Shown here: piece after piece, positions 1,196-31,493 of the stretch
How the letters are laid out: each line of letters begins with the position of its first letter
Numbering within the stretch: the stretch's first letter is position 1
IMG/VR virus record: IMGVR_UViG_3300020160_002656
Coordinates: 1-32,638 of that record
DNA: 32,638 nt
Reading direction: 5' to 3' (one strand)
From: a virus
Notes under the pieces: model-generated
The model's input: the letters and a program-made list of their open reading frames with translations, nothing else
Told to the model about the DNA's origin: nothing
Databases searched by the model: none
Position numbers and translations under genes: made by a program

Positions 1196-1806
1196 TGCCG
1201 ATCTCGCAGACCCAGCTTGCGGAACGATGGGAGCTGTCGAAGGGACGCATCTCACAGCTTGTCACCGCCGGTATGCCTCTCGACTCTTTCGAGGCCGCGG
1301 AGAAATGGCGCGCCGAACGCCACGCGGAGACTGGCATCGCTCCGTCGAATTACCGCCTGGACCCTGGCGAGGTCCCGCGCGTCGAGGTCCCTGCCGATGC
1401 TCCGCCGTCGGCTGATCCGAAGGCCGCGCCGACGCTTGAGACTTTCGAGACCATCCTGGAACGCCAGCGCATCCTCGTCCAGCTCTCGCGCAATCAGTAT
1501 ATTCAGGCCGTCCGCGCCGGCTCTCCCCAGCAGTCGAAACTTTACGCGTCGTATGATAAAACGGTCAACACGCTGACCAAATTAAAAGCCGAGTCCGACC
1601 GTCTCGCCGTGATCAGCCGTGAGTATATCCGCGCGGCCGACGCGACTGACGAAATGCGCCGGCTGATGAGCGAGGTCGTCAACCGTTTGGACAAGCTTGC
1701 GCTGGATGTTGCCGAGTCCTGCAACCCCGAAAACCCCGCGCGCGCCGTGAAGGTGCTCGAGGCCTGGACCCGAAAGGTCCGCGAGGAATTGTCCCGAGAT
1801 GGATAA
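1195..1806 (+). CDS. terS: terminase small subunit (probable)
   Basis: 203 residues. The N-terminal 30 residues (SQTQLAERWELSKGRISQLV) form a helix-turn-helix that resembles the Nu1-type DNA-recognition domain of small terminases. A proline-rich linker follows, then a long helical region (about residues 75-200) suited to oligomerisation. It would recognise the packaging site and load the large subunit. Its start overlaps the upstream methylase stop and its end overlaps the large terminase start by 8 bases, so the three genes are translationally coupled. The call rests on the helix-turn-helix and on position; sequence similarity of small terminases is always weak. Confidence 0.75.
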   Translation: MPISQTQLAERWELSKGRISQLVTAGMPLDSFEAAEKWRAERHAETGIAPSNYRLDPGEVPRVEVPADAPPSADPKAAPTLETFETILERQRILVQLSRNQYIQAVRAGSPQQSKLYASYDKTVNTLTKLKAESDRLAVISREYIRAADATDEMRRLMSEVVNRLDKLALDVAESCNPENPARAVKVLEAWTRKVREELSRDG

Positions 1807-3616
1807 GGCCGAGCTTCGCGCGATCGGGAAGAAGGTCCTCAAACCTTCCGAGTCCGGCGACATCGTCGAATGGCTCGAGGCGAATGTCGAGGCCATCCCC
1901 GACTCTCCGATGCCTGGTCCCTTTCGATCTGAAAGGACGCCATGGATTGCGTCGGCCCTTCGCATCATGGCGGATCCCGAGACAAAGATGGCCTGTCTCC
2001 TGGCGAGCATCCAATCCGCAAAGTCCCTTGCGGCGCGCCTGTTCACCTGCCACATCATCGCGAACGCTCCAGGCCCTTGCATGGTCCTACAGAGCAACGA
2101 CCCCGAGGCCAAGGATTTTGCGATAAGGTACCTGCGGCCGATCTGGAACAACTGCCGGCCTGTCCGTGAAAGGTTCAAGGCCGACGACATGGAACGCTCG
2201 ACGACGGCGGACTTCGACCGCATGACGCTTTACTGTCGCGGCATCTGGAATGAGTCCAACCTTCAGCGCCTGTCCCTTCGTTATGTCATCGTCGACGAAT
2301 GCTGGCTTGCCCCTCCCGGCCACCTGGCAGAAGTCTCCGCGCGCGTCACGGCTTTCGGCTGGATGGGCAAACGCATTTTCATGTCCCAGGGCGGCCGCGA
2401 ACAGCAGGAGTTTCATCAGCTGATGTCGCAGACCGACGAGCGCGATTGGAATTTCCGGTGTCCTCAATGCGACCACCTTCAGCCCTGGAAATGGTCCCAG
2501 GTCCGGATGCCAGAGTCCGCGAAAGTCGCCGGCAAATGGGACCTGCTTAAAGTGTCGTCCGGCACGACCTACGAGTGCGCCGGTTGCAAATGCCACCTGC
2601 CCGACACCAACGCGACCAGGCATGAGGTAAACCTGCGCGGCGAGTTTGTCGCGACGAAGGCCGCCACCCACGCCGGCTATGTCGGACTCCATTGGAACGC
2701 TCTCGCGACGATGTCCTGGGGCGAGCTCGCTGTCATGCGCCTGAAAGCGGAAGAGGCCCTCGAGGAATATGGGGACGAGGAACCGATGCGGATCTGGGTC
2801 CAGAAAAGGTTGGCCGAACCTTACCGCGAAAGCGCCGACGAGGTTAACTTTGAGCTCACCGGCGGAGACTTTAAAATGGGCGAGGATTGGCAGGAGGAGG
2901 GAGGGTTCGTCAACGGCCGTCCTGTCCCCTGGTCCCAGCTCAACGACGAAATGCGCGCGGCTCCGGACTTCGTCCCTCTCCGGTTCATGGGCATCGATGT
3001 TCAGAGGCGAGGTTTCTATTGGGTCGTCCGCGCTTTCTCCGGCGACGGCCGATCACGCCTGATCTCCTGCGGCTACTGTTTCACCTGGGGCGAGGTGTCC
3101 GATGCCCAGAAAAAGCACCGCGTCCACGCGGCAAACACTTTCGTCGACTCAGGCGACCAGCAGGACGAGGTCCTGGCGGCTTGCGCCACCCACGGATGGG
3201 TCGCCACCCGCGGCGATCAGAGAAACGACTTCCCCTGGAAAATCAGGACGCCGATCGGCATGAAGTCCGAGCTCCGTCCCTACTCCCCGCCGGTCGTCGA
3301 GGCCGTCGGCCAGAAGCGGGTCAAACGGTTTTATTTTTCCAACCTGCGCCTGAAGGACACCCTTAACCTGTTGATCCGCAGGGGGCGCCATCTTCGTCCG
3401 AAGGACGCGCCCGAGGAATACCTGACGCAGATGCAGTCCGAGAAGCGCGTCGTCTCCGTCTCCGGCCGTCCTATCTGGGAACAGATTGGCGACCGCGATA
3501 ACCACTTCTGGGACTGCGAGGTCATCTGTATGCTCCCTGCCCTGGCCTGGAAGCTCACCGGCCGAGCCGAGCAAATCGTCGACGCCGAGGCCGGCGATCA
3601 AAAGCATGAGGATTGA
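1799..3616 (+). CDS. terL: terminase large subunit, GpA family
   Basis: 605 residues, normal for lambda GpA-type packaging motors. The ATPase half has a deviant Walker A (ASIQSAKSL, residues 69-77; lambda gpA is also non-canonical here), Walker B YVIVDECW (D166/E167), and a four-cysteine zinc site (C221, C224, C260, C263). The nuclease half carries the expected acidic residues D400 (FMGIDVQ), D450 (FVDSG) and D572 (NHFWDCE), the last in a block typical of GpA. The protein cuts concatemeric DNA and drives it into proheads through the portal. It overlaps terS by 8 bases and is followed by a 132-base spacer before the next block. Confidence 0.95.
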   Translation: MDKAELRAIGKKVLKPSESGDIVEWLEANVEAIPDSPMPGPFRSERTPWIASALRIMADPETKMACLLASIQSAKSLAARLFTCHIIANAPGPCMVLQSNDPEAKDFAIRYLRPIWNNCRPVRERFKADDMERSTTADFDRMTLYCRGIWNESNLQRLSLRYVIVDECWLAPPGHLAEVSARVTAFGWMGKRIFMSQGGREQQEFHQLMSQTDERDWNFRCPQCDHLQPWKWSQVRMPESAKVAGKWDLLKVSSGTTYECAGCKCHLPDTNATRHEVNLRGEFVATKAATHAGYVGLHWNALATMSWGELAVMRLKAEEALEEYGDEEPMRIWVQKRLAEPYRESADEVNFELTGGDFKMGEDWQEEGGFVNGRPVPWSQLNDEMRAAPDFVPLRFMGIDVQRRGFYWVVRAFSGDGRSRLISCGYCFTWGEVSDAQKKHRVHAANTFVDSGDQQDEVLAACATHGWVATRGDQRNDFPWKIRTPIGMKSELRPYSPPVVEAVGQKRVKRFYFSNLRLKDTLNLLIRRGRHLRPKDAPEEYLTQMQSEKRVVSVSGRPIWEQIGDRDNHFWDCEVICMLPALAWKLTGRAEQIVDAEAGDQKHED

Positions 3617-3729: not shown

Positions 3730-3749
3730 TTGACTCCCGCGTAGGTTCA
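3730..3749 (+). promoter_or_regulatory. late block element, copy 1
   Basis: TTGACTCCCGCGTAGGTTCA, whose last base is the A of the ATG of the gpW-like gene. The same 20 bases recur at 7147, 8657 and 10358, and with a changed 3' end at 15452. TTGACT resembles a -35 box but no -10 box lies 16-18 bases downstream, so an ordinary sigma-70 promoter is not supported. It is probably a phage-specific promoter or another block-level control site (inference). Confidence 0.75.
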
Positions 3750-4015
3750 TGGCGAGTCCCACCGGCTGTTTCCTTATTCTTTCCCAGGCGCGCATCGAAG
3801 CTATCGCGGAGAAGGCGGGCGACCTTTTGCTCGAGGGAAAGACCATGATGAGTTATTCTGACAGCGGCACGAGCGTGTCCAAATCCTTCCCGATGTCCGT
3901 CCAGCAGACGCTCATCGAGTGCCGGTACGCTCTCCAGATTAAGGACCCGGAACAATACGGATCTATCGACCGCGTCCGCGTCTATAACGGCCTTTGGAAT
4001 TTCCGCGGCCTTTAA
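3749..4015 (+). CDS. gpW-like head-tail joining protein
   Basis: 88 residues. The N-terminal helix (ARIEAIAEKAGDLLLEG) followed by a short beta segment with serine-rich turns (SYSDSGTSVSKSF) and a second helix matches the helix-beta-helix plan of lambda gpW, and the position between large terminase and portal is that of lambda W. gpW-type proteins plug the filled head and prepare it for tail attachment. The chosen ATG overlaps the repeat element, leaving essentially no leader; a later ATG pair at 3845 would remove the first helix and is less likely. Family assignment is by pattern and synteny only. Confidence 0.65.
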   Translation: MASPTGCFLILSQARIEAIAEKAGDLLLEGKTMMSYSDSGTSVSKSFPMSVQQTLIECRYALQIKDPEQYGSIDRVRVYNGLWNFRGL

Positions 4016-4021
4016 TAATTC

Positions 4022-5599
4022 ATGGCTCCTAAAAAAACGACCATCAAAAAGGCCATTCGCGAAGCTGTCCGCGATGTAAAAGCTTACGCTAAAAAGCGCG
4101 GTTTGAAGGCGCGCGCCGACGCCGGCGGCGGTAGCTCCGGTATCTTCTCTCAGTTCGAGGGCGCCAAATATTCCAATAAGCGGTCCTGGATCAACACGCC
4201 ATGGCCGGCCGACCAGAAGCGGACGATGACCGTGTTCGACCGGCAGGAGCTCACGCGCAAAATGCGCTGGCTCTCCGTCAACGCCGGCCTGGTCCGACAG
4301 ATGATTTCGGACAATGTCCTTTATGCGATCGCGGACGGCCTGAAGCCCCAGCCGGCGTCCGGCTCCTATTCCTGGGACCAACTGTCTTTCGCCTATTTCA
4401 TGGATTGGGCAAACAAGCCCTGCGAAATCACCGGCCGTTACAATTTCTGGGAATGCCAGCAGATCGTCTGCCGGAAGGTCGATGTCGACGGAGAGATTTT
4501 CGTCCTCAAAACTTACGGTCCTGGCTCCGCGACGATGATTCAACTCATCGAGTCTCACCGCGTAGGCACTTCGGCGTCGGCCGCCGGCTCTCCCGATGGG
4601 ATGTGGGACGGTATCCAATTCAACCGGTTCGGCGCCGTCGTCGGCTACAATGTCATCCGATCTGACGGAACGACGCGGCTCATCGGCGCCAACTCGATGC
4701 TCCATGTCTACCACCCTGAACAGGTCAGCGGCGCGCGCGCCTATTCCCCCCTTCAGCACTCGATCAACAACCTGATTGATATTCTCGAGATTTTGTCCCT
4801 CGAGAAAGTCGCAGTCAAAACGAGCTCCGACATTACCCGGACGATCACCCGAGAAAATCCTCAGTTTGACGGATCCGCCGCCGACTTCGAGGCCTTCGGT
4901 ATGCGCCCGCAGGACTACCCGCAGGGCGTCTATACTAATCCGGAACAGGTCGGCTCGTTCATCGGCGGGAAAATACTTTCTCTCGCTCCTGGGGAGAAGC
5001 TCGAAAGTTTCCAAAGCCAGCGCCCCAACCAAAGTTTTAACGGCTTTATTGAACAGCTGGAGAAGGACTCCTGCGGCGGCGTCCTGCCGTATGCGTTTAC
5101 CTCTGATCCCACGAAGGCCGGAGGCGCGGCCATCCGTCTCGTCGTCTCGAAGGCCGAGAGGCACTTCGGCTCCCGCCAGCACATGATCATGACGCGTATG
5201 CTGACGCCCATCTGGGGCTATGTCATCGGCAACGCGATTGCGCGCGGTGATCTCCCTCCGAACGACAATTGGCACAAGGTCAATTGGGTCACTCCGCGCC
5301 GCGTGACCGTCGACGCCGGCCGCGAGTCCACGGCCAACCAGACCGACATTTCGATGGGACTCAAAACCATCAGCGATCACTACGCCGAGCTTGGGATGGA
5401 CAGCCGAGAGGAAGTCCGCCGCCGCGCGGCCGACGCGCGCATGATCATCGACACCGCGCAGGAGTTTAATGTCCCGCCGTCGATGATTTACAATCCTCAG
5501 AATGTCCCGATCGCGGATGTAAATTCTACCGCCGCCGCCTTCGGCACTCCGCCGCCTGGCAAACAATTCACCCCTATGTTCCCCGAAGAGAACCCCTAA
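4022..5599 (+). CDS. portal protein, lambda GpB family
   Basis: 525 residues, about lambda portal length. A basic N-terminus (KKTTIKKAIREAVRD) precedes the conserved start of this family: the RSWI block, LTRKMRWLSVNAGLVRQ, and DNVLYAIADGLKPQP. Mid-protein residues such as DGEIF, IESHRV and HVYHPEQVSGARAYSPL are characteristic. The dodecameric portal forms the head vertex through which terminase loads DNA. It follows the gpW-like gene by 6 bases and precedes the head protease by 9, as in lambda W-B-C. No Shine-Dalgarno sequence precedes its ATG (TTTAATAATTC). Confidence 0.93.
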   Translation: MAPKKTTIKKAIREAVRDVKAYAKKRGLKARADAGGGSSGIFSQFEGAKYSNKRSWINTPWPADQKRTMTVFDRQELTRKMRWLSVNAGLVRQMISDNVLYAIADGLKPQPASGSYSWDQLSFAYFMDWANKPCEITGRYNFWECQQIVCRKVDVDGEIFVLKTYGPGSATMIQLIESHRVGTSASAAGSPDGMWDGIQFNRFGAVVGYNVIRSDGTTRLIGANSMLHVYHPEQVSGARAYSPLQHSINNLIDILEILSLEKVAVKTSSDITRTITRENPQFDGSAADFEAFGMRPQDYPQGVYTNPEQVGSFIGGKILSLAPGEKLESFQSQRPNQSFNGFIEQLEKDSCGGVLPYAFTSDPTKAGGAAIRLVVSKAERHFGSRQHMIMTRMLTPIWGYVIGNAIARGDLPPNDNWHKVNWVTPRRVTVDAGRESTANQTDISMGLKTISDHYAELGMDSREEVRRRAADARMIIDTAQEFNVPPSMIYNPQNVPIADVNSTAAAFGTPPPGKQFTPMFPEENP

Positions 5600-5608
5600 T
5601 TTTACGCC

Positions 5609-7150
5609 ATGCGAAACCTGTCCAAAGATTACAAAAGCCAGCGCCCCCTGCTGATCAACCCTTCGCAGGCCGAGGCCTATCTCGAGCGCGCGGCCGGCGT
5701 CGAGCTCCCCTTGGGCGCCAAACTATCCGACATGGGAGATATGCTGGCCGCCATTTTTGGCGCCAAGGCCACGCTCCAAAAGTATCCGCCTTTCGCCGTC
5801 GTCCCTGTCCACGGTGTCATCGGACGCAACCTGTCCGATCTTGAGGCCATGTGCGGCTGTTGCGATGTCCAGGCCGTCGAGGAAATGATCGAAGAGTGCG
5901 AACGCGACCCCTCGATTAAAACCATCATCCTGGACTTCGACTCCCCCGGCGGCACTTCCGTCGGCGTCCCCGAGCTCGCCAACCGCGTCAAGGCCTGCTC
6001 GAAGGAGGTCATCTCTTTCACCGGCTCCGAGTGTTGCTCCGCGGCTTACTGGATTGCTTCCCAGGCCTCCCAATTTTACGCGACGCCCTCGAGCTCCGTC
6101 GGATCCATCGGCGTCTATATCGCTTATCCCGACCTGTCCAAAGCTTACGAGATGGAGGGCGTCCGCATGGATGTCATCCGCGCCGGGACCTATAAGGGCG
6201 CCGGCATCCCTGGCACCTCCCTCGATGCCAACCAGCGGAAAATGCTCCAGGACGAGGTCGTCTCCATCTGGGACGATTTCAAGGCCGCGGTGAAGTCCGT
6301 CCGGTCTTTCGTCGAGGATGCCTCGATGGAAGGTCAGACCTTCTCCGGCAAAAAGGCCGCCGAAGCTGGACTTGTCACCTCCCTGGTCAACGGCTTTGAC
6401 GAGCTTATGACCTCCCTGAACGCCGCCGTCGCCGCGCAGATGGAAGCCGACGAGGAAAATGCCGACCGATCTGCCGGCGGTTCCGAACATGGAGAGCTCG
6501 TCGGCCACGACGACGACGAGGATGAGGATGAGGAAGGAATGAACCGCATGGCCTCGTCCCGCGCCCTTGGCTCCCTGTCCGCCTTGATCATGAGTCACCT
6601 GTCCGCCAAATCTGAGGAAGCCCCGGCGTCCCCAGGCGAGGGCGTTGAGCCCCAGCCGAAGGCCGACGAGGAGGACGAGGATAAGGAAAACGGCGAGGAT
6701 CCGACCGCCCCCCAGACCAAATGCGTCATTTCCGACTTTGACGGCACAATCCGCGAGCCCTCGTCCGGGAAACTTATCACGGCCGTTGCCGGCCACCTGC
6801 GCCGGATGGCCGCTGAGGGGAAGGTTGTCCACATCGTCACCGGCCGTCTCGAGTCCGCCCGCGCCGAGACCGAGGATTATCTGAAATCCAACGAGGTCCC
6901 CTTTGCCAGCTTGCGGATGAAATCCGACGCGGCCGAAGCCACGCCTGGTTACAAGGTTACCGCCGTCCGCGCGATCGAGGCCGAGGCCGGCCTGGTGAAG
7001 CACATCGTCGAAAATGACCCCGACTGTTCCAGGGCTTATTCCGACGCCGGTTATTCCTGCATCCACCCGGACTCCCTGTCCGCGGCCGAAGCGGAAAGCG
7101 ACGCGTCGAGCCGCCCCCTGGACACCGATCCTAAACAGGCGCGCGCTTGA
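5609..7150 (+). CDS. S49 head maturation protease fused to HAD phosphatase-like domain
   Basis: 513 residues. Residues about 55-275 are an S49 (SppA/lambda C-like) serine protease: LDFDSPGG at 108-115, nucleophile Ser144 (ECCSAAYWIASQ) and general-base Lys196 (AGTYKGAG), spaced as in bacterial SppA. It would trim the portal, scaffold or coat proteins during head maturation. After acidic linkers (DDDEDEDEE near 301-309; DEEDEDKE near 353-360) comes an unexpected C-terminal domain, residues 370-490, with HAD-fold motifs: DFDGT (376-380), IVTGR (409-413), a candidate lysine K438 or K449, and ENDPD (468-472). It resembles the phosphatase half of polynucleotide kinase/phosphatase enzymes. The stop codon lies inside the second repeat element. 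No separate short scaffold start is obvious inside the gene. Confidence 0.9.
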   Translation: MRNLSKDYKSQRPLLINPSQAEAYLERAAGVELPLGAKLSDMGDMLAAIFGAKATLQKYPPFAVVPVHGVIGRNLSDLEAMCGCCDVQAVEEMIEECERDPSIKTIILDFDSPGGTSVGVPELANRVKACSKEVISFTGSECCSAAYWIASQASQFYATPSSSVGSIGVYIAYPDLSKAYEMEGVRMDVIRAGTYKGAGIPGTSLDANQRKMLQDEVVSIWDDFKAAVKSVRSFVEDASMEGQTFSGKKAAEAGLVTSLVNGFDELMTSLNAAVAAQMEADEENADRSAGGSEHGELVGHDDDEDEDEEGMNRMASSRALGSLSALIMSHLSAKSEEAPASPGEGVEPQPKADEEDEDKENGEDPTAPQTKCVISDFDGTIREPSSGKLITAVAGHLRRMAAEGKVVHIVTGRLESARAETEDYLKSNEVPFASLRMKSDAAEATPGYKVTAVRAIEAEAGLVKHIVENDPDCSRAYSDAGYSCIHPDSLSAAEAESDASSRPLDTDPKQARA

Positions 7151-7166
7151 CTCCCGCGTAGGTTCA
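7147..7166 (+). promoter_or_regulatory. late block element, copy 2
   Basis: Identical 20-mer TTGACTCCCGCGTAGGTTCA. It overlaps the stop codon of the protease gene (TGA 7148-7150) and ends 10 bases before the ATG of the scaffold-like gene. Identity is kept although the neighbouring codons differ from those at the other copies, so it is not a by-product of coding. Confidence 0.75.
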
Positions 7167-7176
7167 TCACCAGCCC

Positions 7177-7638
7177 ATGACTCTCGAGCAATCCCTGCAG
7201 GCCCTTAAGTCCGCCTTCACCAGCAAATCGTCGGAGGCCGAAAAGCTTGCCGCTGAAATGTCTGAGCTTAAGGCCAAAAACGAAACCATGACGGCCGAGT
7301 TCGCCGCTGTTTCCGAGAAGCTTGCCGCGTCCGCCGCGCTTGCCGTCGAGCGTGACTCCCTGGCCTCAAAGGTCGACGATCTCACGAAGGCCCTTGCCGC
7401 CGCCCAAGAGGTGAAGTCCCAGGCCGTCGCCCAAATCGAAAGCGTCGGAAAAGAGTCCGCGAAAATTGCCGCCGCTGTCGGCGTGTCTCCTGTCGAAATC
7501 TCCGCCGCCGATCAGTCCGCGCAAAAGTCTCCCGAGGAAATCTGGACCGAGTATTGCTCGATGTCCGACCCCGCCGCAAAGCTCGCCTTTTACAATAAGA
7601 ACCGGGCCGCGATCATCTCGCACCTGGGCGTCAAATAA
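7177..7638 (+). CDS. coiled-coil scaffold-like protein
   Basis: 153 residues, Ala/Glu/Lys/Ser-rich. Residues 1-100 are continuous heptad-like coiled coil (SLQALKSAFTSKSSEAEKLA and on), then a linker and a compact C-terminal stretch with EEIWTEYCSM and AFYNKNRAAI. Size, composition and position between head protease and coat protein suggest the capsid scaffold or a capsid-assembly cofactor; this is inference because scaffolds diverge quickly. The first gene of a two-gene block after the second repeat element, it is separated by 31 bases from the coat gene. Confidence 0.6.
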   Translation: MTLEQSLQALKSAFTSKSSEAEKLAAEMSELKAKNETMTAEFAAVSEKLAASAALAVERDSLASKVDDLTKALAAAQEVKSQAVAQIESVGKESAKIAAAVGVSPVEISAADQSAQKSPEEIWTEYCSMSDPAAKLAFYNKNRAAIISHLGVK

Positions 7639-7669
7639 TTTTCAACCCCCCATCCCAACTCCCTAACCC

Positions 7670-8587
7670 ATGAGCAACTCCGTCCTCAACCAGGGCTTGG
7701 CTCCGCAGTTCGTCGCCGCAGAAACCCTGCGCACGCTCATCCCGGTCCTCGCCCCCCTGAACAAAATCGTGACCACCGACTTCAGCGCCTATGTCGCTGA
7801 AAAGGGCCAGGTCGTCCACACCCGCTACGCCGACGCTTTCACCGCGTCGACCTACAACCGCGCCACCGGCTTCGTTGCCGAGGACGCCGTGTCGAACGAT
7901 GTGGCGATCACCCTGTCCGACCATAACTATGTCATGACTTCGTTCACCGACACCGAAGTCGCGACGATCTCCCTTGATATGCTTCGCCACGTGTTCATCG
8001 CTCCGATGGCCAACGCCACGGTGACGAGCATTTTCAACGGTGTCATCGGGCAGACGACCGCCGCCGCTTATCCTGGCACTCCTTTCTACTCCGGCACCAA
8101 GGCCAATTTCAACCGCCTTGCCATCGCCGCCGGCGCGACGAACATGACGAAGGCCAACCTGCCTTTCAGCGATCGCTCGCTCCTGCTCACTCCTGACGCT
8201 TTCGGCCAGCTCCTGCAGGACGCTTCCGTCGCTCAGTACCTGTCCATCGGTGACACCTCCGTGATCCGTGACGGCAAGGTTGGCCGTCTCCACGGCGTCG
8301 ACATCTACGAGGTCAACACCTGGTCCGCGGCTCCTGCCGGCGAGCACCTTAATGGTATCGCGTCCTGTCGCGAGGGCCATGTCGTCGTCACGCGCGTCCC
8401 TGCCGCGCCGACCACCGGCGGTGGCGAACAGATTACCGTCCAGGACACGGACAGCGGCTTCGCTTTCTCGCTTCGCTCCTGGTACGACTGGACTGCCGGT
8501 CTGTCGAACCTGTCGGCCTCCTGGATCATCGGCCAGAGCGTCGGCAATCCGAACGCCGCCCTGCGCGTCGTTATCTCCGACCTCTAA
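7670..8587 (+). CDS. major capsid protein, P22-coat-like
   Basis: 305 residues. The opening (SNSVLNQGLAPQFVAAETLR) and the central block DHNYVMTSFTDTEVATISLD, followed by FSDRSLLLTPDAFGQLL and RDGKVGRLHGVDIYEVN, are the arrangement of P22-coat-like HK97-fold capsid proteins. The gene is followed at once by a strong terminator, consistent with a highly expressed block end. Its leader is AC-rich with no Shine-Dalgarno sequence (CATCCCAACTCCCTAACCC before ATG). It carries the only ACGT tetranucleotide found by eye in the window (7989-7992, a His-Val codon pair). Confidence 0.88.
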   Translation: MSNSVLNQGLAPQFVAAETLRTLIPVLAPLNKIVTTDFSAYVAEKGQVVHTRYADAFTASTYNRATGFVAEDAVSNDVAITLSDHNYVMTSFTDTEVATISLDMLRHVFIAPMANATVTSIFNGVIGQTTAAAYPGTPFYSGTKANFNRLAIAAGATNMTKANLPFSDRSLLLTPDAFGQLLQDASVAQYLSIGDTSVIRDGKVGRLHGVDIYEVNTWSAAPAGEHLNGIASCREGHVVVTRVPAAPTTGGGEQITVQDTDSGFAFSLRSWYDWTAGLSNLSASWIIGQSVGNPNAALRVVISDL

Positions 8588-8615
8588 AACTCACCCGCCA
8601 CGCGCGGGAAGAGCT

Positions 8616-8646
8616 GAGGCCCCCTTTCGAGGGGGCCTCTTTTTTT
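8616..8646 (+). terminator. rho-independent terminator after the coat gene
   Basis: A 10-bp perfect stem GAGGCCCCCT/AGGGGGCCTC closed by a TTCG tetraloop and followed by seven T. It sits 28 bases past the coat stop and just before repeat element copy 3, so it closes the scaffold-coat block. This is the clearest intrinsic terminator in the window. A smaller CCCGC/GCGGG hairpin precedes it at about 8594. Confidence 0.93.
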
Positions 8647-8656
8647 GTCCAGGCCT

Positions 8657-8676
8657 TTGACTCCCGCGTAGGTTCA
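8657..8676 (+). promoter_or_regulatory. late block element, copy 3
   Basis: Identical 20-mer, 10 bases after the coat terminator and overlapping the ATG of the connector gene by its last base. Placement directly behind a terminator is strong circumstantial evidence that it restarts transcription. Confidence 0.82.
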
Positions 8677-9017
8677 TGGGATCCATCCAGAACGAATGGG
8701 CCGCAGACGCCGCCGAAATCCTAAACGAAATACCCAAGGCCGTGACGGTCCGCCGTGGCTCTGGTCCCTCCACTTCTTTCAATGTCCTAATGTCGGCGCC
8801 GATGGTCCAGCAGGACCTCGAGACCGGCGGCTTTCTGAATTCGACAAGCTACGATGTTAAATTCCTGAAGGCCGACGCCGATCTCAACCCAGGCGTCGTC
8901 GTCTACGGCAACCTGGTTTCATTTAACGGCGGCGACTACCGCATCGTCGCGATCAACGACCGCCCTCCGTCCGCCTGGATTATCGTCCGCGTCCAGACAA
9001 AGGCCGGCCCCGCCTGA
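8676..9017 (+). CDS. probable head-tail connector protein
   Basis: 113 residues, small and predicted mainly beta after an N-terminal helix (WAADAAEILNEIPKAVTVRRG). The order coat - small beta protein - Z-like protein - U-like protein is that of lambda E-FII-Z-U, so an FII/stopper-like joiner is the best guess. The C-terminal part (VVVYGNLVSFNGGDYRIVAIND) has the small barrel look of such proteins. The ATG abuts repeat copy 3; the stop overlaps the next ATG (TGATG). No family motif proves the assignment. Confidence 0.6.
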   Translation: MGSIQNEWAADAAEILNEIPKAVTVRRGSGPSTSFNVLMSAPMVQQDLETGGFLNSTSYDVKFLKADADLNPGVVVYGNLVSFNGGDYRIVAINDRPPSAWIIVRVQTKAGPA

Positions 9018-9913
9018 TGGCGATCACCGCCAACAAGGGCGTCGTCGTCGACGACTCCGCGCTGATGGCGCACCTGCAGGACTTCTCAAAGCTCATGGGC
9101 AAGGAGTTGTCCGTCGTCATCCGCGACCAGGCGGCGGCCTTCTGCCTCGACATGATTAAATATACCAGGCCTTACAAAACGAAGGGCAAAGGTATGGATA
9201 AGGACGCAAAAGATAAAGGTATCAAAAATGTCCGGGACTCCGTCTTTCATATTTTCAGGCCTCTCGCCCTGGCAACTTCGGAGCAGGTTGCCGCCATCGG
9301 ACGGTTCGATGTTTTTAAAATGTGGGAGAAGCGCAACGGCGGATCTGCCGACGGTGCCAAATCAAAAAAGGTCAGGTGGGCAAAGTTTCAGCAGACTTTC
9401 GGCGGCGGGAAGTCTCTCCCTTTCATCGAGTCCGGCGACAAGGCCGCGCTCGGATCCATCCACACCTCTTTACGGCGCGACGGCGGCAGGGGTTCCCTGA
9501 AGTCCTCCGCGGCCGAGTCCGACGAGCCGTTTGCGATCGTCGCCCGCGAGAAGGACATTGAGAATTACGCAAAAATGAAGGCCCTCGATGTCGGCCTTTT
9601 AAAGTCAGCTTATTACCACGCCGCCCTCCGTATCCGCGCGGACATAAAGGGCGCGGCCTGGGTAAAGCATCCAGCCGGCGCGAGCAACGCGATCGGGGAC
9701 GATAAAACGAATGTCCCGCTTCAGCCCTTCGTCGTCGTCGGAAACCTTAAAGGTCGACGCGGCATCACCGATTCGCTCGTCCAGGCCGCGCTCAACCATC
9801 GCGCTTATGCGATGCGCAACGCCATGGCCCGCGAGCTTAATAAAAATAAGGTGTCCTGGTGGTCCGCCACCGTGACCGGGCGCCTGTCTAAAACCTACCA
9901 GCACTTTACCTGA
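9017..9913 (+). CDS. minor tail / tail completion protein (Z-like position)
   Basis: 298 residues, basic, unusually Lys-rich for this genome (TRPYKTKGKGMDKDAKDKGIK near residues 48-68). The N-terminal helix with DQAAAFCLDMIKYTRPY and the C-terminal RAYAMRNAMARELNKNK resemble tail-completion proteins of the lambda Z/HK97 gp10 type, which are usually shorter. It lies between the connector and the tail terminator, coupled by overlap upstream and 4 bases downstream. The function is inferred from order; a different neck role is possible. Confidence 0.5.
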   Translation: MAITANKGVVVDDSALMAHLQDFSKLMGKELSVVIRDQAAAFCLDMIKYTRPYKTKGKGMDKDAKDKGIKNVRDSVFHIFRPLALATSEQVAAIGRFDVFKMWEKRNGGSADGAKSKKVRWAKFQQTFGGGKSLPFIESGDKAALGSIHTSLRRDGGRGSLKSSAAESDEPFAIVAREKDIENYAKMKALDVGLLKSAYYHAALRIRADIKGAAWVKHPAGASNAIGDDKTNVPLQPFVVVGNLKGRRGITDSLVQAALNHRAYAMRNAMARELNKNKVSWWSATVTGRLSKTYQHFT

Positions 9914-9917
9914 TCTT

Positions 9918-10361
9918 ATGCCGTCCCCCACCGTTTATGGCATCCGCACGATCGCGGAGCAGTCCCTTAAGGCCTGGTTTGATCTGAACGCCGCGATGCT
10001 CCCCGGCGTCGAAATCAACGCCGGCCAGACCGACGAGGTCCGGACCGTCCCCATCATCATCCTCCACGCCGAGACCGCACAGGCCCACCGCGACCTGGGG
10101 GCCACCCCCCTTGGCAATTTTGAGCTCACCGTGAAGGTCTATGTCTATTCTTCGGCCGACGACTCTACCCTGGCCCAGCACCGGGAACGCGTCGAGAACG
10201 CCCAGGCCATCTTGCAGGATGTCGCCGGCCTGCAATCCGCCTGGACCGAGGGCCAGCTTTACGCGGCTTGGATTGTCTCCGACGATGAGGGGGTTGCCGA
10301 TCGCCGGTATGGGAATGTCCTGACCTATACCCTCGTCGCCGTCTACCCGCCGGCGGCTTGA
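9918..10361 (+). CDS. tail terminator protein (gpU-like)
   Basis: 147 residues. An N-terminal helix (TIAEQSLKAWFDLN) followed by PGVEINAG and alternating beta strands (VPIIILHAE, FELTVKVYVYSSADD), a helix (HRERVENAQAILQ), and a final strand pair (VLTYTLVAVYPP) match the alpha/beta layout of lambda gpU. Such proteins cap the tail tube at its final length and bind the head connector. The gene closes the third block: its TGA is inside repeat copy 4. Confidence 0.65.
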   Translation: MPSPTVYGIRTIAEQSLKAWFDLNAAMLPGVEINAGQTDEVRTVPIIILHAETAQAHRDLGATPLGNFELTVKVYVYSSADDSTLAQHRERVENAQAILQDVAGLQSAWTEGQLYAAWIVSDDEGVADRRYGNVLTYTLVAVYPPAA

Positions 10362-10377
10362 CTCCCGCGTAGGTTCA
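10358..10377 (+). promoter_or_regulatory. late block element, copy 4
   Basis: Identical 20-mer overlapping the stop of the tail terminator gene (TGA 10359-10361) and ending 13 bases before the next ATG at 10391. Here, as in copy 2, the element stands off the start codon, so it cannot simply be a start-codon context sequence. Confidence 0.75.
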
Positions 10378-10390
10378 AGCCCTCTCGACC

Positions 10391-10729
10391 ATGTCGCTCC
10401 CTCAAACCTACGGCCAACCTCATGTGTTCGCCCTGTATGATATCTCGTCGTTCATCACGCTTCAGTCCGACGGCATCAGCCAAAAGCCGGCCCTCGATGT
10501 TGAGGTCATGGATGAAACCGGCCGCGTCATCACCGACCGCCTGGACGACCTTCGCATTGAGACGACCCTTTCCGGCGTCCTAAAGACCGGCGCAACGATT
10601 CCTGAAATTGGCGATCGGCTTACTTACGACGCGATCAGTTATATCGTTAAGGATATTTCCGACGACGGCGTGAACAACGGTTTCCGCAAGGTCACCCTGA
10701 AGCTCGTCAAGTACCAGGAGATTGCCTGA
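10391..10729 (+). CDS. small tail protein, tail-tube candidate
   Basis: 112 residues, predicted nearly all beta after residue 30 (VEVMDETGRVITDRLDD, RIETTLSGVLKTGATIPEIG, DRLTYDAISYIVKDI, FRKVTLKLVKYQEI). It lies in the place of lambda V, between tail terminator and chaperone/tape measure, so it may be the tube subunit, though it is about half the usual length. It is the first gene after repeat copy 4. No recognised family signature; a baseplate or completion role remains possible. Confidence 0.45.
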   Translation: MSLPQTYGQPHVFALYDISSFITLQSDGISQKPALDVEVMDETGRVITDRLDDLRIETTLSGVLKTGATIPEIGDRLTYDAISYIVKDISDDGVNNGFRKVTLKLVKYQEIA

Positions 10730-10748
10730 CCCGAAAGGGCGCACCGCC

Positions 10749-11333
10749 GTGGCTGACCGGTGGACTTTGGCGGCGACCATCCTCCCTCCGACCATGGAGG
10801 TTTGCGGTCGTCGTCTCCTGCCTTTTTGCCTTCGTCACCGAGTTGCGCTCGAGGCGATCGACTCTCCGATCTTGTCTTTCAGCCGTCCCTTCGGCGCGGC
10901 CGATGTAATCAACGCGGTTCGGATCCTTTCGACGCATGACATGGACCAGGCGCGGCGCCCTGTCTCGCTCCTGGACGGTTATCACTTCCACTCCATGCGC
11001 CTCAGTCCCCGGCGCCTGAAGCGCGAGGCCTCGAAGCTTGCGACCTATTTCCTGGCTCAGTCCCTTTGGCCTCGATTCTGGGAAAAGGAGACGAAGTCCA
11101 ACAGCGGCGGCTTGCCCTGGCACCTGTCCGTCGTCGCTTGTCTCGTCCGGAACGGTCACTCGACTCAGGAGGCCTGGACCATGCCGGAGGCCGAGGCCAT
11201 CTGGCTCCATGTCGCGCACTCCCGCGCGGCCGGGGCGGATGTCTCCGTCGTCTCCGACCGGGAATGGGAAGCCATGGAGAGCTACCGAAAAAGCGAAATT
11301 GCAAAGTCCGCCGGCGATCGGTTGAGTAACTGA
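10749..11333 (+). CDS. tail assembly chaperone-like protein
   Basis: 194 residues from a GTG start; TTG at 10722 or ATG at 10794 are alternatives. Features: a CGRRLLPFCLRHRVALEAIDSP block, a mid helical region, and a C-terminal WHLSVVACLVRNGHSTQEAW followed by MPEAEAIWLHVAHSRAAG, all predicted helical. Position directly before the tape measure is that of tail assembly chaperones (lambda G/GT). No slippery sequence or overlapping second frame was seen, so only a single chaperone form is predicted. The start is uncertain because the frame overlaps the previous stop. Confidence 0.55.
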   Translation: MADRWTLAATILPPTMEVCGRRLLPFCLRHRVALEAIDSPILSFSRPFGAADVINAVRILSTHDMDQARRPVSLLDGYHFHSMRLSPRRLKREASKLATYFLAQSLWPRFWEKETKSNSGGLPWHLSVVACLVRNGHSTQEAWTMPEAEAIWLHVAHSRAAGADVSVVSDREWEAMESYRKSEIAKSAGDRLSN

Positions 11334-11334
11334 C

Positions 11335-12561
11335 ATGGCCGACGATGTAAAAATCAAATTCGGGGGCGACTTCTCCGCCGTCGGCAAGGGCGCAGGAGAA
11401 GCCGCGGCCCAGGCCGGCACAGCCCTAAAGGGACAGCTTGCAAAGTTTGGGGAGGAAATGCTGACCCGCGTCGGCGCGGCTGTCGCCCTCACCGCGCTTT
11501 TTGACAAATTCATCGACCAGCTGTCGGCGGCAAATAACTATTTCAAAGAGCTTAACGACGCGATCGATAAGTTCGGCGGCGGCGGAGAGGAATTCCAGCG
11601 CGTCGCCGGCCTTGCAAAATCCGTCAGCGTCCCGATGGAGGTCGTCGCAAAGTCGATGGGCATTTTTTCAAAATACATCGGCTTGGCCTCAAAGGACGCA
11701 AAGGGTCACGGCAAAGTCCTCCGCGAGCTTGGCTTTGATAATGAGCAGATTTCTTCCGGCACGATCTCAGCGACTGACGCTCTCGCGGCCCTTGCGAAAC
11801 AATTGAAGGAAACCGGGAACGAGAACCTCGTCGCCGCGAATGCCACGCTGATCTTCGGGCGCGCCGGCGCCGAGCTCATGCCGGTGATCCAGAAGGGGTC
11901 CCGCGAAATTAAACAGCAGGCCTCCGAGCTGACCGTCTATTCCGAGGCCGAGCTCCAGGCCGCCGAAGCCGCTGAACGCGCGGCGGCTCGTCGTCAGGCC
12001 GCTTGGCAAAAGTTTTTCCGGTGGCTGTCCCTGCAGATGGATGAAAATACCACTAAGGTCGTCGTCATGGAAACTGCGGCCGAAACCACAAAAGAGTTTG
12101 AAAAGAAGGGCCTGGACACGAAGTCGTCGGAGGGCCGGCAGAAGCTGATGTCCGAAATCATCGAGCGCCTTCAGGCCAAAGGCGTAGGCCTTGAGGCCCA
12201 ACTTGTCGCCTTTGAGAAAATCAAACGCGAGCTTGCAGGATCCGTCGGCGTGACCGACGAAAAACGCGCCGAGCTGGAGGTTGAGCTTGCCGAAATGAAA
12301 GCGGCGATCGAAAAGGTAAAGAAGGGCGATGAGGCGAGCAAAGCGGCGGCTGTCGCTTCCGCCGGCGGCGGTCCTACTGCTCTCTCCGCGTCCTCCCTTC
12401 AGGCGATCGGCGGCGGCGACATTAATTCCATCTATGCCGGCGTCTCTATTCAGCAGGCCCAGCTCGACGCCCAGGTGACGACCGCCAACAACACGACCGT
12501 CCTGGCAAACCAGGCGAACACTCCCGACCGATCTGCCGGCCCGACGACTGTCGCTAAATAA
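11335..12561 (+). CDS. tail tape measure protein (short)
   Basis: 408 residues. The start (VKIKFGGDFSAVGKGAGEAA) and the segment EEFQRVAGLAKSVSVPMEVV, with a FGRAGAELMPVIQKG block at about residues 177-191, are typical of tape measure proteins; long helices rich in Glu, Lys and Ala follow (residues 190-345), then an Ala/Ser/Gln-rich tail. It has a hydrophobic stretch (LTRVGAAVALTALFDKFI, near 44-61). The tape measure fixes tail length; by the common rule of about 0.15 nm per residue the tail would be near 60 nm. It starts one base after the chaperone stop. Confidence 0.8.
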   Translation: MADDVKIKFGGDFSAVGKGAGEAAAQAGTALKGQLAKFGEEMLTRVGAAVALTALFDKFIDQLSAANNYFKELNDAIDKFGGGGEEFQRVAGLAKSVSVPMEVVAKSMGIFSKYIGLASKDAKGHGKVLRELGFDNEQISSGTISATDALAALAKQLKETGNENLVAANATLIFGRAGAELMPVIQKGSREIKQQASELTVYSEAELQAAEAAERAAARRQAAWQKFFRWLSLQMDENTTKVVVMETAAETTKEFEKKGLDTKSSEGRQKLMSEIIERLQAKGVGLEAQLVAFEKIKRELAGSVGVTDEKRAELEVELAEMKAAIEKVKKGDEASKAAAVASAGGGPTALSASSLQAIGGGDINSIYAGVSIQQAQLDAQVTTANNTTVLANQANTPDRSAGPTTVAK

Positions 12562-12566
12562 AAACT

Positions 12567-13436
12567 ATGCCCAACCCATCCCCCACCCGCATCGACTTTG
12601 GCAACCCTCTTGCCTCTCCCGGCGAGCGCCAGCCCACCGGCTCGATGAGCGTCGACTCTTATGGGCTTGTCCAGGCCCAGCTGACCTTTGCCTTGGACTC
12701 TGATCCGAACAACTTAGCCCAGGCCATCCTATGGTACTCTCCTGGGGTCGACTATCCGGACAACCTGGGGTTCCCTCTCGTCTCTTACAAGTATCAAATG
12801 TCCGCGTCGAAGGGCGGCGTGACGATGATCGTCGTCGACTACATGGGCGTGTTCCGCGAGTCCGGCGTCACGGATCCGCAGTTGACCGGCGTCGCGAACA
12901 CGACGGCCCAGCCCATCGAGACTCACCCTAATTTCACCGAGGTCACCGACGACACGATCGGCACCGGCTCCCCGACTCAGCTCCTGGGCGGGAAGCCCCC
13001 CATCAACCTTGCGCCTGGAACGAACCCCATCTTCAACGAGGTTCAGAATTCAAACGGCGTCGTCACTTACACTTTCGCAGGATTCGGCGTGTCCGACACG
13101 GTAAACTACAAGGCCGGCATCCGTCAGTTTCTCCGGCCGATGGTAAATGTCCGCGGCATGATTTTCCTTAACCCTGCGAATGGTTACCGCGCGGCGGCGA
13201 TGATCAACGGCGTCGGTCGAACCCTTTTCGAGTCCGATGTGACAAAGCTCATCGCTCCGACTGACGCTGTCGGCGCCCTGGCAGGGACGGACTGCCTGCT
13301 GACTTCGGCCAGCATCGAGTGCATCGGCAACCCTGATAACTATGCCGGCATAAAAGTGTCTTATGATATCATGGTCGGCGGCGAGCTTGGATGGGACCAG
13401 GATATTTACGGCGAGTTCCAGAATTCCATTTTCTAA
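12567..13436 (+). CDS. tail protein of unknown role
   Basis: 289 residues, rich in Gly, Asn, Thr and Pro, predicted beta; no transmembrane or catalytic motif is seen. It follows the tape measure by 5 bases and precedes a long distal tail protein, so it is probably a distal tail or baseplate component. Repeated Asn-Gly-rich turns (NPANGYRAAAMINGVGR) and a YDIMVGGELGWDQDIYGEF ending give no family assignment. An unusual alternative is that it is the true major tube protein, displaced downstream of the tape measure. Confidence 0.6.
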   Translation: MPNPSPTRIDFGNPLASPGERQPTGSMSVDSYGLVQAQLTFALDSDPNNLAQAILWYSPGVDYPDNLGFPLVSYKYQMSASKGGVTMIVVDYMGVFRESGVTDPQLTGVANTTAQPIETHPNFTEVTDDTIGTGSPTQLLGGKPPINLAPGTNPIFNEVQNSNGVVTYTFAGFGVSDTVNYKAGIRQFLRPMVNVRGMIFLNPANGYRAAAMINGVGRTLFESDVTKLIAPTDAVGALAGTDCLLTSASIECIGNPDNYAGIKVSYDIMVGGELGWDQDIYGEFQNSIF

Positions 13437-13438
13437 AG

Positions 13439-14974
13439 ATGGACGACCTTGGCTTTAACGGCGCCGGCTCCAGGTTCAACGCGCGGTTTGAGTCCGGCTC
13501 TCCCATCCTGGCAAAACAGCTTAACGACCTTGCGGCCGGCCTGCAGGCGTCCCTGCCTATTCCCTACCTGGGCGCCGGCCCCAGCGTCAGCTTCACCCCC
13601 GGCGGCTCCATCATCGTCGACAACACCGAGAAGCTGACGCGCACCACCCCTTCCGCCGATCTGGTCCAGCAGTTCGAGATGGCCGCCGTCGTCGTCGACG
13701 GCAACGCTCGTCTCCGCATCGCCAAGGGGTCCGTCGGCTTTTCCCAGAGCAATATGCCGCGCGTCCGGCTTGGAGGCCACAGCGACCAGCGGCAGGGCTG
13801 GATTGGGAAGGTTGCCGTCTATGGCTCCGGCGTCTCCCTGACTTCCGGAACCGGCGACCCGACCTGGATGGACGGCGGCGGCTATTATTCCTTCGCGTCC
13901 CCAGGGACTTATTATGTCACGATCGGAAAGTTTGATATCAGTCAGTCGAACGACGACACCGACTCCGAGCTGTTGAACGCCGAGGCGCCCTGGGTGTCCA
14001 TCTTCAAGTCCGGCGACGACATTGAGGACATTATTTTTTCCGAGACCGGTCCTTCGCTTTATGTGAACAAGACCAATGTCCAAAAAATGACCGGCTACGA
14101 CGCGGCGTCGACCGGCTTGTCCGGGGATTGGGGTAATTGTCACACCACCTGGTTCAACCCTGTTAAGTGGGGCTATGCCGTGAAGCTCATCGGCATCGTG
14201 ACGGCGACGAACGACCCGGCGCTTGGCATGATTCTCTCCCTCGATCAGCACCTCGTCGGCCCGCTTGATCTTCAGGTCCCTATCCATTTTAACGGCACCA
14301 CCCTTTGCAATCAGTCTGATCTCACCGAGGCCGAGGATCCGTATAACCTGAACAAAAACTCCACGCCCAAATGGGCCGACATCGTCAACTCCGCGACTCT
14401 TTCGGGAATGGACTCCCTCGTCGCCGCAAACGACGATTGGTATGAGGAATTCGTCGGCCCTGCCGACTGGACAGAATTGAATTACAGCTACCTCGTCCCG
14501 GCCAGCTGTGCCGCGCAGGACGACAACGCCTGCGAGCATCCTTTCCAATTCCACCCCTTCGTCGTCCCGAGCGGGGCCGGCGACCTGTTCCGCGCCAATG
14601 TTTGTTCCGGCATGGTCAACAACCTCGTCCCCTGGGACGATGTCGGCCCTGGCCGCTTGAAGCTCCCGGCGACCATCGACTTCCTGATCAACCAGGACAC
14701 TTATATTTACCTGCGCCTTGGCACCGAGGCCTACGCGTCGAACAACCCGATCTTCCCGGTAACCGACGACACCGACGAATATTACCCGACGATCGTTCAG
14801 TCGCAGACCGCGCTCGTCGACACGGACGAGTATTGCTATATCCTGATGGGCGTGGCTCGAAACATTGGCGACCCGGAAAACTTCACCGTGGACCAGACCA
14901 TCTCTGGCTCCGTTTGGGCCGAGCGTCTCAAGGTTGCCGACAACACCGCAACTTATTATTGGGCCGGCGTCTAA
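13439..14974 (+). CDS. distal tail / baseplate protein
   Basis: 511 residues from the ATG at 13439, 2 bases after the previous stop; the frame is open 48 bases further upstream but that would overlap the preceding gene. The N-terminal 80 residues (FNARFESGSPILAKQLNDLA, GAGPSVSFTPGGSIIVDN) resemble the linker segment that many phages place at the start of distal tail or fiber-attachment proteins. The rest is Asp/Thr/Tyr-rich, predicted beta, ending NTATYYWAGV. It is probably a structural tail-tip component that presents the receptor-binding proteins encoded next. Confidence 0.6.
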   Translation: MDDLGFNGAGSRFNARFESGSPILAKQLNDLAAGLQASLPIPYLGAGPSVSFTPGGSIIVDNTEKLTRTTPSADLVQQFEMAAVVVDGNARLRIAKGSVGFSQSNMPRVRLGGHSDQRQGWIGKVAVYGSGVSLTSGTGDPTWMDGGGYYSFASPGTYYVTIGKFDISQSNDDTDSELLNAEAPWVSIFKSGDDIEDIIFSETGPSLYVNKTNVQKMTGYDAASTGLSGDWGNCHTTWFNPVKWGYAVKLIGIVTATNDPALGMILSLDQHLVGPLDLQVPIHFNGTTLCNQSDLTEAEDPYNLNKNSTPKWADIVNSATLSGMDSLVAANDDWYEEFVGPADWTELNYSYLVPASCAAQDDNACEHPFQFHPFVVPSGAGDLFRANVCSGMVNNLVPWDDVGPGRLKLPATIDFLINQDTYIYLRLGTEAYASNNPIFPVTDDTDEYYPTIVQSQTALVDTDEYCYILMGVARNIGDPENFTVDQTISGSVWAERLKVADNTATYYWAGV

Positions 14975-15447
14975 TGGCCTACCAAATCGGAGGACCGAAC
15001 GGAGGGGACCCTGGGAAAGCTCCGACCTGGGCCTCCCTGCGATCGCCACTTGTTCTCAACGCTTTCATTTGGAACGCGTCCTATACTCAGTTCTCTCGTC
15101 AATGGCCGGAGAGTGAGGCCAGCCCCCCTAAGTTTTTTAAATGGGAGAGTGGCTCTCTTTTCCGCGTCCAGAGGTTTGCGAGTCCGGCTTATTTCGGCAT
15201 CTCAAATAATGAGGGTCCTGACCCGAGCATCGTCTATACTGCCTGGAATGTCGGCCTGCAGTATCCTTCCAGGACCGTGGACAACCATGACTTTCTTTCC
15301 CTCGTCGGGGAGGCCTTGGACACGGACATCGGCACCTTCATCATCACCGCCGCCGCGCACGATCCGAACCAGGGCGGGCAGACGCTTTCCGATCAACCTC
15401 CCGGCGGGACTGAGATTTACGCCATCGGGAACCTGACCGGCTTTTGA
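14974..15447 (+). CDS. small tail-tip protein, unknown
   Basis: 157 residues starting at an ATG that overlaps the preceding stop (TAATG). Aromatic-rich in the middle (FIWNASYTQFSRQWPESEAS, FFKWESGSLFRVQRF), with no transmembrane segment. It ends just before repeat copy 5. Translational coupling to the distal tail gene suggests stoichiometric assembly with it. No family recognised. Confidence 0.6.
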   Translation: MAYQIGGPNGGDPGKAPTWASLRSPLVLNAFIWNASYTQFSRQWPESEASPPKFFKWESGSLFRVQRFASPAYFGISNNEGPDPSIVYTAWNVGLQYPSRTVDNHDFLSLVGEALDTDIGTFIITAAAHDPNQGGQTLSDQPPGGTEIYAIGNLTGF

Positions 15448-15451
15448 CGCT

Positions 15452-15471
15452 TTGACTCCCGCGTAGGTCTA
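15452..15471 (+). promoter_or_regulatory. late block element, copy 5 (variant 3' end)
   Basis: TTGACTCCCGCGTAGGT is preserved, then CTA replaces TCA; the last base is the A of the ATG at 15471. The conserved core is therefore the first 17 bases. It follows the previous stop by 4 bases and opens the fiber/lysis block. Confidence 0.72.
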
Positions 15472-15785
15472 TGAGCTCCCCCACGATCTCCTGGAAGCGC
15501 GGCAGTACCTTCGCCGCCCAGGTCATCTACACTCCCGGCGCCGGCGACCCTGCGACCCTTGATGGCGTCCTCGTCGAGTCGTCCGTCATGGACCACGCCC
15601 GCCAACGCTACCCGCTGACCGTGACCATGCTTCCCGGCTTTCTTGGCTTCAATGTCTACTTTGACGGCGACAGCTCCGATTGGGCCGCCGGCACCGCGGC
15701 CATCGACTACCGTTGCACCCTCGACGAGGTCGTCTTTTATTCGACGACCGCGCGCTTCACCATCGAGCCCCAGGTCACCCTCTAA
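15471..15785 (+). CDS. small fiber-associated protein
   Basis: 104 residues, predicted beta-sandwich (ISWKRGSTFAAQVIYTP, YPLTVTMLPGFLGFNVYFDG, TARFTIEPQVTL). Its position immediately before the collagen-like fiber and its start in repeat copy 5 suggest an N-terminal fiber attachment or baseplate upper domain protein. The stop overlaps the fiber start (TAATG). No firm homology. Confidence 0.55.
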   Translation: MSSPTISWKRGSTFAAQVIYTPGAGDPATLDGVLVESSVMDHARQRYPLTVTMLPGFLGFNVYFDGDSSDWAAGTAAIDYRCTLDEVVFYSTTARFTIEPQVTL

Positions 15786-27940: not shown

Positions 27941-28297
27941 ATGGTCTGCCTCTCCGAGACGCTGAAGCGGCAGGCCTTTGTCGCTCGCGCCGAGCTCCTG
28001 GGGCTTTCCCTTGCCCGCGCTGAATTCCTGTCCCGGTGTTCCTACACTCAGGTTGCAAAGCTTGAGGCCAACCGGTCGAACCTTATTCCGTATGACCCTG
28101 CCGTCCTGATCCGCGAGGCCTTTCGCATCGGCATCGGCTTTCGCGACACCGCCAGGATGATGGGCATGACCGCCTCCGAGCTTAAGTCCTACGGATTGCC
28201 TTTCCCGCGGCGATCGAAGTATCGTCCGCCTGTCCGCGGCACCGGCTACACGCTTTTCCCGCCTGAACCAATCCGCACCGATGTCTGCCGCCGCTAA
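27941..28297 (+). CDS. hypothetical protein with possible helix-turn-helix
   Basis: 118 residues. The N-terminal helical part (ARAEFLSRCSYTQVAKLEAN) and a later FRDTARMMGMTASELKSYGL both have helix-turn-helix-like spacing; the C-terminus is basic and Pro-rich. It overlaps the next gene by 17 bases. Function unknown; DNA binding is a guess. Confidence 0.55.
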   Translation: MVCLSETLKRQAFVARAELLGLSLARAEFLSRCSYTQVAKLEANRSNLIPYDPAVLIREAFRIGIGFRDTARMMGMTASELKSYGLPFPRRSKYRPPVRGTGYTLFPPEPIRTDVCRR

Positions 28298-31463: not shown

Positions 31464-31493
31464 TTCGCTCGTCCCTGCTGACGCCATCCCCCC

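Follow-up and report, generated by a model that had tools for sequence, protein, structure and literature searches.

A 20-bp element repeated at the structural gene boundaries of a phage family, a probable late promoter with a co-evolving phage-encoded factor

Results

Element copies in the window

The window, by which we mean the whole stretch of DNA analyzed here (32,638 nucleotides; IMG/VR record IMGVR_UViG_3300020160_002656), contains a 20-bp element, TTGACTCCCGCGTAGGTTCA, in four exact copies at positions 3730–3749, 7147–7166, 8657–8676, and 10358–10377, all on the + strand. A fifth copy (15452–15471, + strand) has two mismatches to this sequence, TTCA being changed to TCTA at bases 18 and 19. 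The first-pass annotation had described the four exact copies and the fifth variant correctly, apart from counting three changed bases in the latter. Scanning the window with up to three mismatches gave no further sites, and no copies are expected by chance (0 copies in 100 shuffles).

The final base of copy 1 is the A of the ATG of an 88-aa gene (3749–4015), which is followed by the genes for the portal (4022–5599) and the head maturation protease (5609–7150). Copy 2 contains the TGA of the protease gene and is followed, 10 nt on, by an ATG at 7177; its block consists of a coiled-coil gene and the major head protein gene. Copy 3 ends on the A of the ATG of gene 8676–9017 and precedes three genes of the head/neck region, and copy 4, which contains the TGA of gene 9918–10361 and lies 13 nt before an ATG at 10391, precedes a long series of tail-region genes; for genes without an assignment, the labels “head/neck” and “tail” are inferred from gene order. 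Copy 5, whose final base is again the A of an ATG (gene 15471–15785), opens the tail fiber region. The collagen-like fiber gene of the window contains two tandem 174-nt copies that are 78% alike (15848–16201).

In copies 2 and 4, the TTGA at 7147 and 10358 supplies the stop codon of the upstream gene, whereas copies 1, 3, and 5 are intergenic, a correction to the overlap with different codons or stops that the first-pass annotation gave for each place. Likewise, the proposed distance of 0–13 bases to the start codon holds as 10 and 13 bases for copies 2 and 4, while the other three end inside the ATG. The terminase block (about 176–3616) is without a copy; the element thus opens the five blocks after the terminase rather than every structural block.

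The phage and its relatives

The window covers nearly all of a phage genome of some 33 kb. From gene 31890 around the circle to copy 1, the distance differs by no more than a few hundred bases from that in relative G015, and the sequence of relative G022 (31.8 kb) runs circularly through its terminase gene. Among named phages, Verrucomicrobia phage P8625 (KP792622; 24% identity in the terminase) and Akkermansia phage Moulinsart (27% identity in the portal) are the closest, which makes a verrucomicrobial host probable. A near-identity search of the phage collection with the window gave no match, and a pattern search for a host or prophage among 84,980 bacterial and archaeal species genomes found no relatives of the 31890 protein or the major head protein. 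The comparisons below are based on about 100 relatives taken from IMG/VR.

Outside the structural region, three sigma-70-like sites at 19166, about 19440, and 19749 (TTGCA(T/A), a spacer of 17/18, and TATTGT, CACTCT, or TACTCT) precede small early-region genes that lack Shine–Dalgarno sequences; no consistent set of such early promoters was found in relatives. Positions 27947–28297 encode a small conserved protein, possibly with a helix-turn-helix, that is present in most relatives. The region 30707–31493 consists of about 790 bp without a conserved gene in front of gene 31494, with a tandem GGTATAATTCC at 31381–31403 and G/C-rich hairpins at 31417–31463, and is a possible promoter and origin region.

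Conservation and concerted spelling of the element

Nearly all near-complete relatives have orthologs of the genes that follow the five copies, each with an element of the same build just upstream. In all 17 dereplicated phages, a few of which are represented by truncated contigs, the element stands at the same five boundaries and only on the gene strand. The strict pattern TTGACTnnnGCGnnnnnnYA gave five sites in most complete genomes, all on the gene strand, and none on the reversed control; in one genome, there is a sixth site, the core of which does not fit. The motif search in related phages that the first-pass annotation had proposed thus yields an element that is conserved at gene starts and not scattered randomly within genes.

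The core of the element (bases 7–15), which is G+C-rich in most relatives, is spelled differently in different phages. The window shares CCC GCG TAG with G008, whereas the core reads CCC GCG TTG in G001 and G013, GCC GCC TAG in G010, CCT GCG TAG in G014, GCC GCG TTG in G016, GTG GCG GAG in G017, CCC GCG GAG in G018, CCC GCG CTA in G025, TGGACTGCCGCCC in G019, TTGACTnnnnCGCAA in G020, and TTGACAACATCGCAT in G022. Among the 17 dereplicated phages, copies within one phage differ on average at 0.64 of the nine core bases, while copies of different phages differ at 3.32 bases when taken from the same boundary and at 3.33 when taken from other boundaries. Shuffling the phage labels within each boundary gave a within-phage value of 3.17 (SD 0.10), and none of 2000 shuffles was as low as the observed value. 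The 12 bases upstream show the opposite trend, with 8.73 mismatches within a phage and 7.16 between phages at the same boundary. Common descent of the copies is therefore traceable by genome, not by boundary position.

Because the cores are alike within a phage while their flanks are unrelated, the pattern points to a shared, co-evolving reader and not to copying of DNA; a recent duplication or gene conversion, which should have brought the flanking bases with it, is ruled out as the source of the likeness. Concerted spelling of this kind is the mark of sites that are read by a co-evolving trans-acting factor.

The major head protein of the window (7670–8587) is about 95% identical to that of the TTG-type phages of the G001 group, whereas the neighboring genes are only about 50–78% identical. 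Although it adjoins this gene, copy 3 has the spelling of the window, and the gene appears to have been exchanged recently in a way that left copy 3 in that spelling. In the G005 contigs L120 and L121, bases 7–9 are GCG in copies 1, 3, and 5 but CCC in copies 2 and 4; in this phage, these bases may be loosely read, or there may be two promoter classes.

Start base and spacing to the start codon

Across relatives, the kept positions are bases 1–15 and, after bases 16–18 that vary even inside one phage, a YA at bases 19–20. At boundaries 2 and 4, where this dinucleotide lies outside any start codon, 102 of the 107 distinct copies have YA, and at boundaries 1, 3, and 5, the ATG starts exactly at base 20 (128 of 133 copies). 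The distance from the element to the ATG is accordingly bimodal, being 0 at the latter three boundaries and mostly 10–17 at the other two. RNA polymerases usually prefer a pyrimidine followed by an A as start site, and the conservation of YA makes its A, the 20th base of the element, the probable RNA start. The first-pass annotation had placed the start inside the GG, which is not kept in relatives, while YA at bases 19–20 is kept in almost every copy; its expectation of near-leaderless messages gains support, as the proposed start base coincides with the first base of the ATG at copies 1, 3, and 5.

Conservation up to 60 bases upstream of the intergenic boundaries 1, 3, and 5 revealed nothing strong except an adjoining T. 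At boundaries 2 and 4, a C adjoins the element, and the protein-coding sequence there holds some further positions constant. As had been noted for the window at the outset, no sigma-70 −10 hexamer lies 16–18 bp after TTGACT at any of the five copies, and none is conserved in relatives. If TTGACT acted as a sigma-70 −35 box, transcription would start about 17 bases past base 20, and since this is beyond all five ATGs, a sigma-70 reading is excluded for the expression of these genes.

Terminators

The strong terminator that the first-pass annotation had placed before copy 3 was confirmed. It is an intrinsic terminator at positions 8616–8646 (+ strand), with a 10-bp stem (8616–8639) followed by TTTTTTT, and separates the major head protein gene from copy 3. 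Of 32 nonredundant relatives, 28 have a terminator-like hairpin with a T-run in the 120 nt preceding copy 3, compared with 5% in shuffles. With a terminator behind the major head protein gene, transcription should restart at copy 3. No terminator was found upstream of copies 2 and 4 and, in most relatives, none upstream of copy 5. Upstream of copy 1, a hairpin that is more stable than shuffles (z below −1.5) occurs in 86% of 36 nonredundant sequences, usually without a long T-run. In many relatives (e.g., L028 near 8960–8997), the terminator is separated from copy 3 by a conserved GACCCCTCTGGC stretch, which is absent in the window.

Candidate factors

The first-pass annotation had likened the extent of the element to that of phage-polymerase-style promoters and had suggested the product of gene 31890 as a possible factor. 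A T7-style polymerase finds no support, as the single-subunit RNA polymerase family (PF00940) was absent from all 13 genomes searched (the window and 12 relatives), whereas the identical search found T7's own polymerase with an E-value of 9.9e-110. The longest ATG-started ORF in the window encodes 605 aa and is the terminase, and the window ORFs that were scanned gave no match to an RNA polymerase family. Sigma region 2 (PF04542) was found in none of the 13 phage genomes and in 10 of 14 control genomes, although a diverged region 2 such as that of T4 gp55 could escape Pfam.

Gene 31890 (31890–32594, + strand) encodes a 234-aa protein. The N-terminal half varies, and the C-terminal domain, which is conserved, carries a helix-turn-helix near residues 153–177, weakly like sigma-70 region 4 and AlpA. 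In the AlphaFold model, pLDDT is about 90 in the C-terminal domain and 71 overall. The best VIA-align match of the model is AlpA (Z 5.3, RMSD 4.5, 81 aligned residues), and many chains of sigma-A region 4 follow at Z 4.5–5.2, with one match at Z 5.2 having an RMSD of 3.4 and 27% identity over 60 aligned residues; Z scores of about 5 are weak and can reflect merely a common arrangement. Similarly weak are the Foldseek matches (E 0.2 or worse) and a match to Pfam Sigma70_r4 in one of 14 members (E 0.24). Searches of sequence libraries gave nothing significant, and a sequence search of solved structures gave nothing. By our reading of the alignment, the positions with which sigma-70 region 4 contacts the −35 box are mostly not kept. 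Nearly every near-complete relative has an ortholog, with identity falling to 35% in G022, a phage that carries five element copies of its own; no homolog was found in P8625.

Residue 159 lies in the helix-turn-helix region. Two separate branches of a tree of 49 sequences have V, A, or T at this residue in place of R, Q, or K, and where the motif is known, these two branches are the ones with T instead of A at base 14 of the element; phages without T at base 14 have R or Q. Over the whole protein, this link is no better than background, with about 19 such columns among 27 proteins and, within the 31890 protein, one seen where 0.7 are expected; the association of residue 159 with base 14 is thus a lead, not proof. 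When motif distances were compared with protein distances for 27 genes in a Mantel-type analysis, a few outlier phages and shared ancestry dominated the outcome, and gene 31890 did not stand out. Among the additional TTG- and TCA-type contigs scanned for residue 159, none contained the gene.

Immediately upstream lies gene 31494 (31494–31853, + strand), the conserved 119-aa product of which is modeled (pLDDT 92) as a helical hairpin plus a winged-helix-like domain. Structure comparison gave winged-helix-like matches at Z up to 5.5, a level that is uninformative. The protein may be a second factor or a partner of the 31890 product. That the latter is a reader is plausible, given its conservation and its C-terminal helix-turn-helix with weak likeness to sigma-70 region 4, but unproven; we regard it as an even question whether the factor is the 31890 product, alone or with that of 31494.

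Discussion

The concerted spelling of the copies, together with their presence at the same boundaries in relatives, supports the earlier proposal of a late promoter that is read by a phage factor and is not of the sigma-70 type. Across the family, the element is probably a late promoter working with a co-evolving phage-encoded factor. From the comparisons we infer a promoter function, a start base, a factor, and a polymerase that would act as follows. A phage DNA-binding factor, most likely the 31890 product and possibly together with that of 31494, would bind, at about −19 to −5, the two-part core TTGACT-nnn-GCG-nnn and direct RNA polymerase to the A of YA; the polymerase would be that of the host, given that the search for a T7-type polymerase gene yielded none. 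The start A would be the A of the AUG at copies 1, 3, and 5, giving leaderless mRNA, and copies 2 and 4 would give a leader of roughly 11–18 nt. Transcription from copy 2 to the terminator at 8616 would form a short unit for the major head protein, with copy 3 restarting transcription behind it. The proposed factor leaves DNA melting without explanation, as no sigma region 2 was found by the Pfam model.

The element could instead act in RNA, either as a processing site cut at the pyrimidine-A or as a translation-start signal bound by a phage protein, which we consider unlikely. Copies 2 and 4 do lie inside continuous gene runs, start codons are nearby, and YA is a typical endoribonuclease cleavage step. 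Processing is difficult to reconcile with a terminator directly before copy 3 in 28 of the 32 relatives, which would leave little RNA to cut, and the bimodal ATG distance (0 versus mostly 10–17) is unlike a translation signal, for which a fixed Shine–Dalgarno-type core is also missing.

Slightly lower still do we rate an operator or stoperator, that is, a repressor site that blocks or roadblocks transcription between the gene blocks. The stoperators of cluster A mycobacteriophages are asymmetric, have one orientation, and lie at gene boundaries, all of which applies to the present element. These stoperators are mentioned in earlier work (PMC3203893). Any co-evolving DNA-binding protein would fit the concerted spelling, but a repressor site leaves unaccounted for the YA rule, the exact zero spacing to the ATG at three boundaries, and the expression of the genes behind the copy 3 terminator, and no integrase is among the families found in the window.

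A promoter for an alternative sigma factor of the host, acting without a phage factor, is about as improbable as a repressor site. It would suit the finding of neither a T7-type polymerase nor a recognizable sigma region 2 in the 13 genomes searched; however, the element is without −35/−10 spacing, and since its spelling is homogeneous in each phage and differs between relatives at many positions, the host factor would have to change equally fast.

A loading site for a Q/AlpA/GafZ-type antiterminator, for which the top VIA-align match of the 31890 model to AlpA, the terminators in the late region, and the likewise sigma-like helix-turn-helix of GafZ from the Caulobacter gene transfer agent (PMC11150451) might be adduced, is very improbable because such sites are flanked by the −35 and −10 boxes of a sigma-70 promoter (PMC9371919, PMC11150451), whereas here there is no −10 or other conserved upstream element and the element abuts the start codon.

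A late promoter of the proposed kind has its closest counterparts in AR9 and T4, with which it would share a short single block, a start base within the consensus, late genes, and the lack of a sigma-70 −35/−10 pair. T4 late transcription uses its own recognition factor, gp55/gp33, and the promoter TATAAATA, which at about −10 is found in the element of no relative. In the AR9 late promoter, AACA-(6N)-TA/G, the TA/G is the start within the consensus (PMC5312081). AR9 differs in having a multisubunit phage polymerase and leaders of 26–491 nt (PMC5312081), whereas the messages of the window would be leaderless, and the window's phage family differs from both systems in its mostly G+C-rich core, its lack of a T7-type polymerase, and a spelling that varies between related phages. 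T7-type promoters are similar in being about 20 bp long, ending at the start base, and occurring in several copies of one orientation, but they differ in that no single-subunit RNA polymerase gene is found here and in that the inferred start is YA, not GG.

The SAS/ESAS repeats of cluster K mycobacteriophages (PMC3203893) are also asymmetric, lie within a few bases of start codons, mostly in one orientation, and sometimes contain the upstream stop codon, and the consensus of the extended repeats differs between subclusters. The SAS is, however, a 13-bp GGGATAGGAGCCC with a Shine–Dalgarno-like core, occurs in 11–19 copies in the nonstructural half only, and has a proposed translational role (PMC3203893); the window element, which has a different sequence and is found at structural genes only, does not belong to it. 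Q, AlpA, and GafZ resemble the proposed system in that a phage-type DNA-binding regulator with a helix-turn-helix works together with host RNA polymerase at late or structural genes (PMC9371919, PMC11150451), but their elements are inside a sigma-70 promoter, and that of the window has no surrounding −35/−10 pair.

Phage P8625 (KP792622) also has repeated promoter-like sequences close to gene starts, which differ in resembling sigma-70 promoters with an extra GTATCC. Upstream of 5448, 10772, 15594, and 17541 in this genome (L115), TTGACA- or TTGCAA-type boxes are separated by a spacer containing GTATCC (or GTATC) from a TATTGG-, TATCTG-, or TAATAC-like box that lies shortly before the ATG. To judge from their layout, these sites look like P8625's own late promoters with a site for an extra factor.

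More tentatively, and with less than even confidence, the element may represent a new promoter architecture, in which a phage protein with a sigma-region-4-like helix-turn-helix recognizes TTGAC at a distance of only 19 bp from the start base, in place of a −35/−10 pair, host RNA polymerase starts leaderless mRNA, and reader and site have changed together several times within one phage family. A phage late promoter with its own factor is known; the single short block, the leaderless start, the finding of no phage polymerase, and the repeated concerted change would be new. Late transcription signals of Verrucomicrobia phages are not described in the literature searched, where the motif of the element gave two chance matches only. 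If confirmed, this would be a compact leaderless late promoter that works without a T7-type phage polymerase, and its five sites, respelled together and repeatedly in one phage family, would offer a natural experiment on regulator–site co-evolution.
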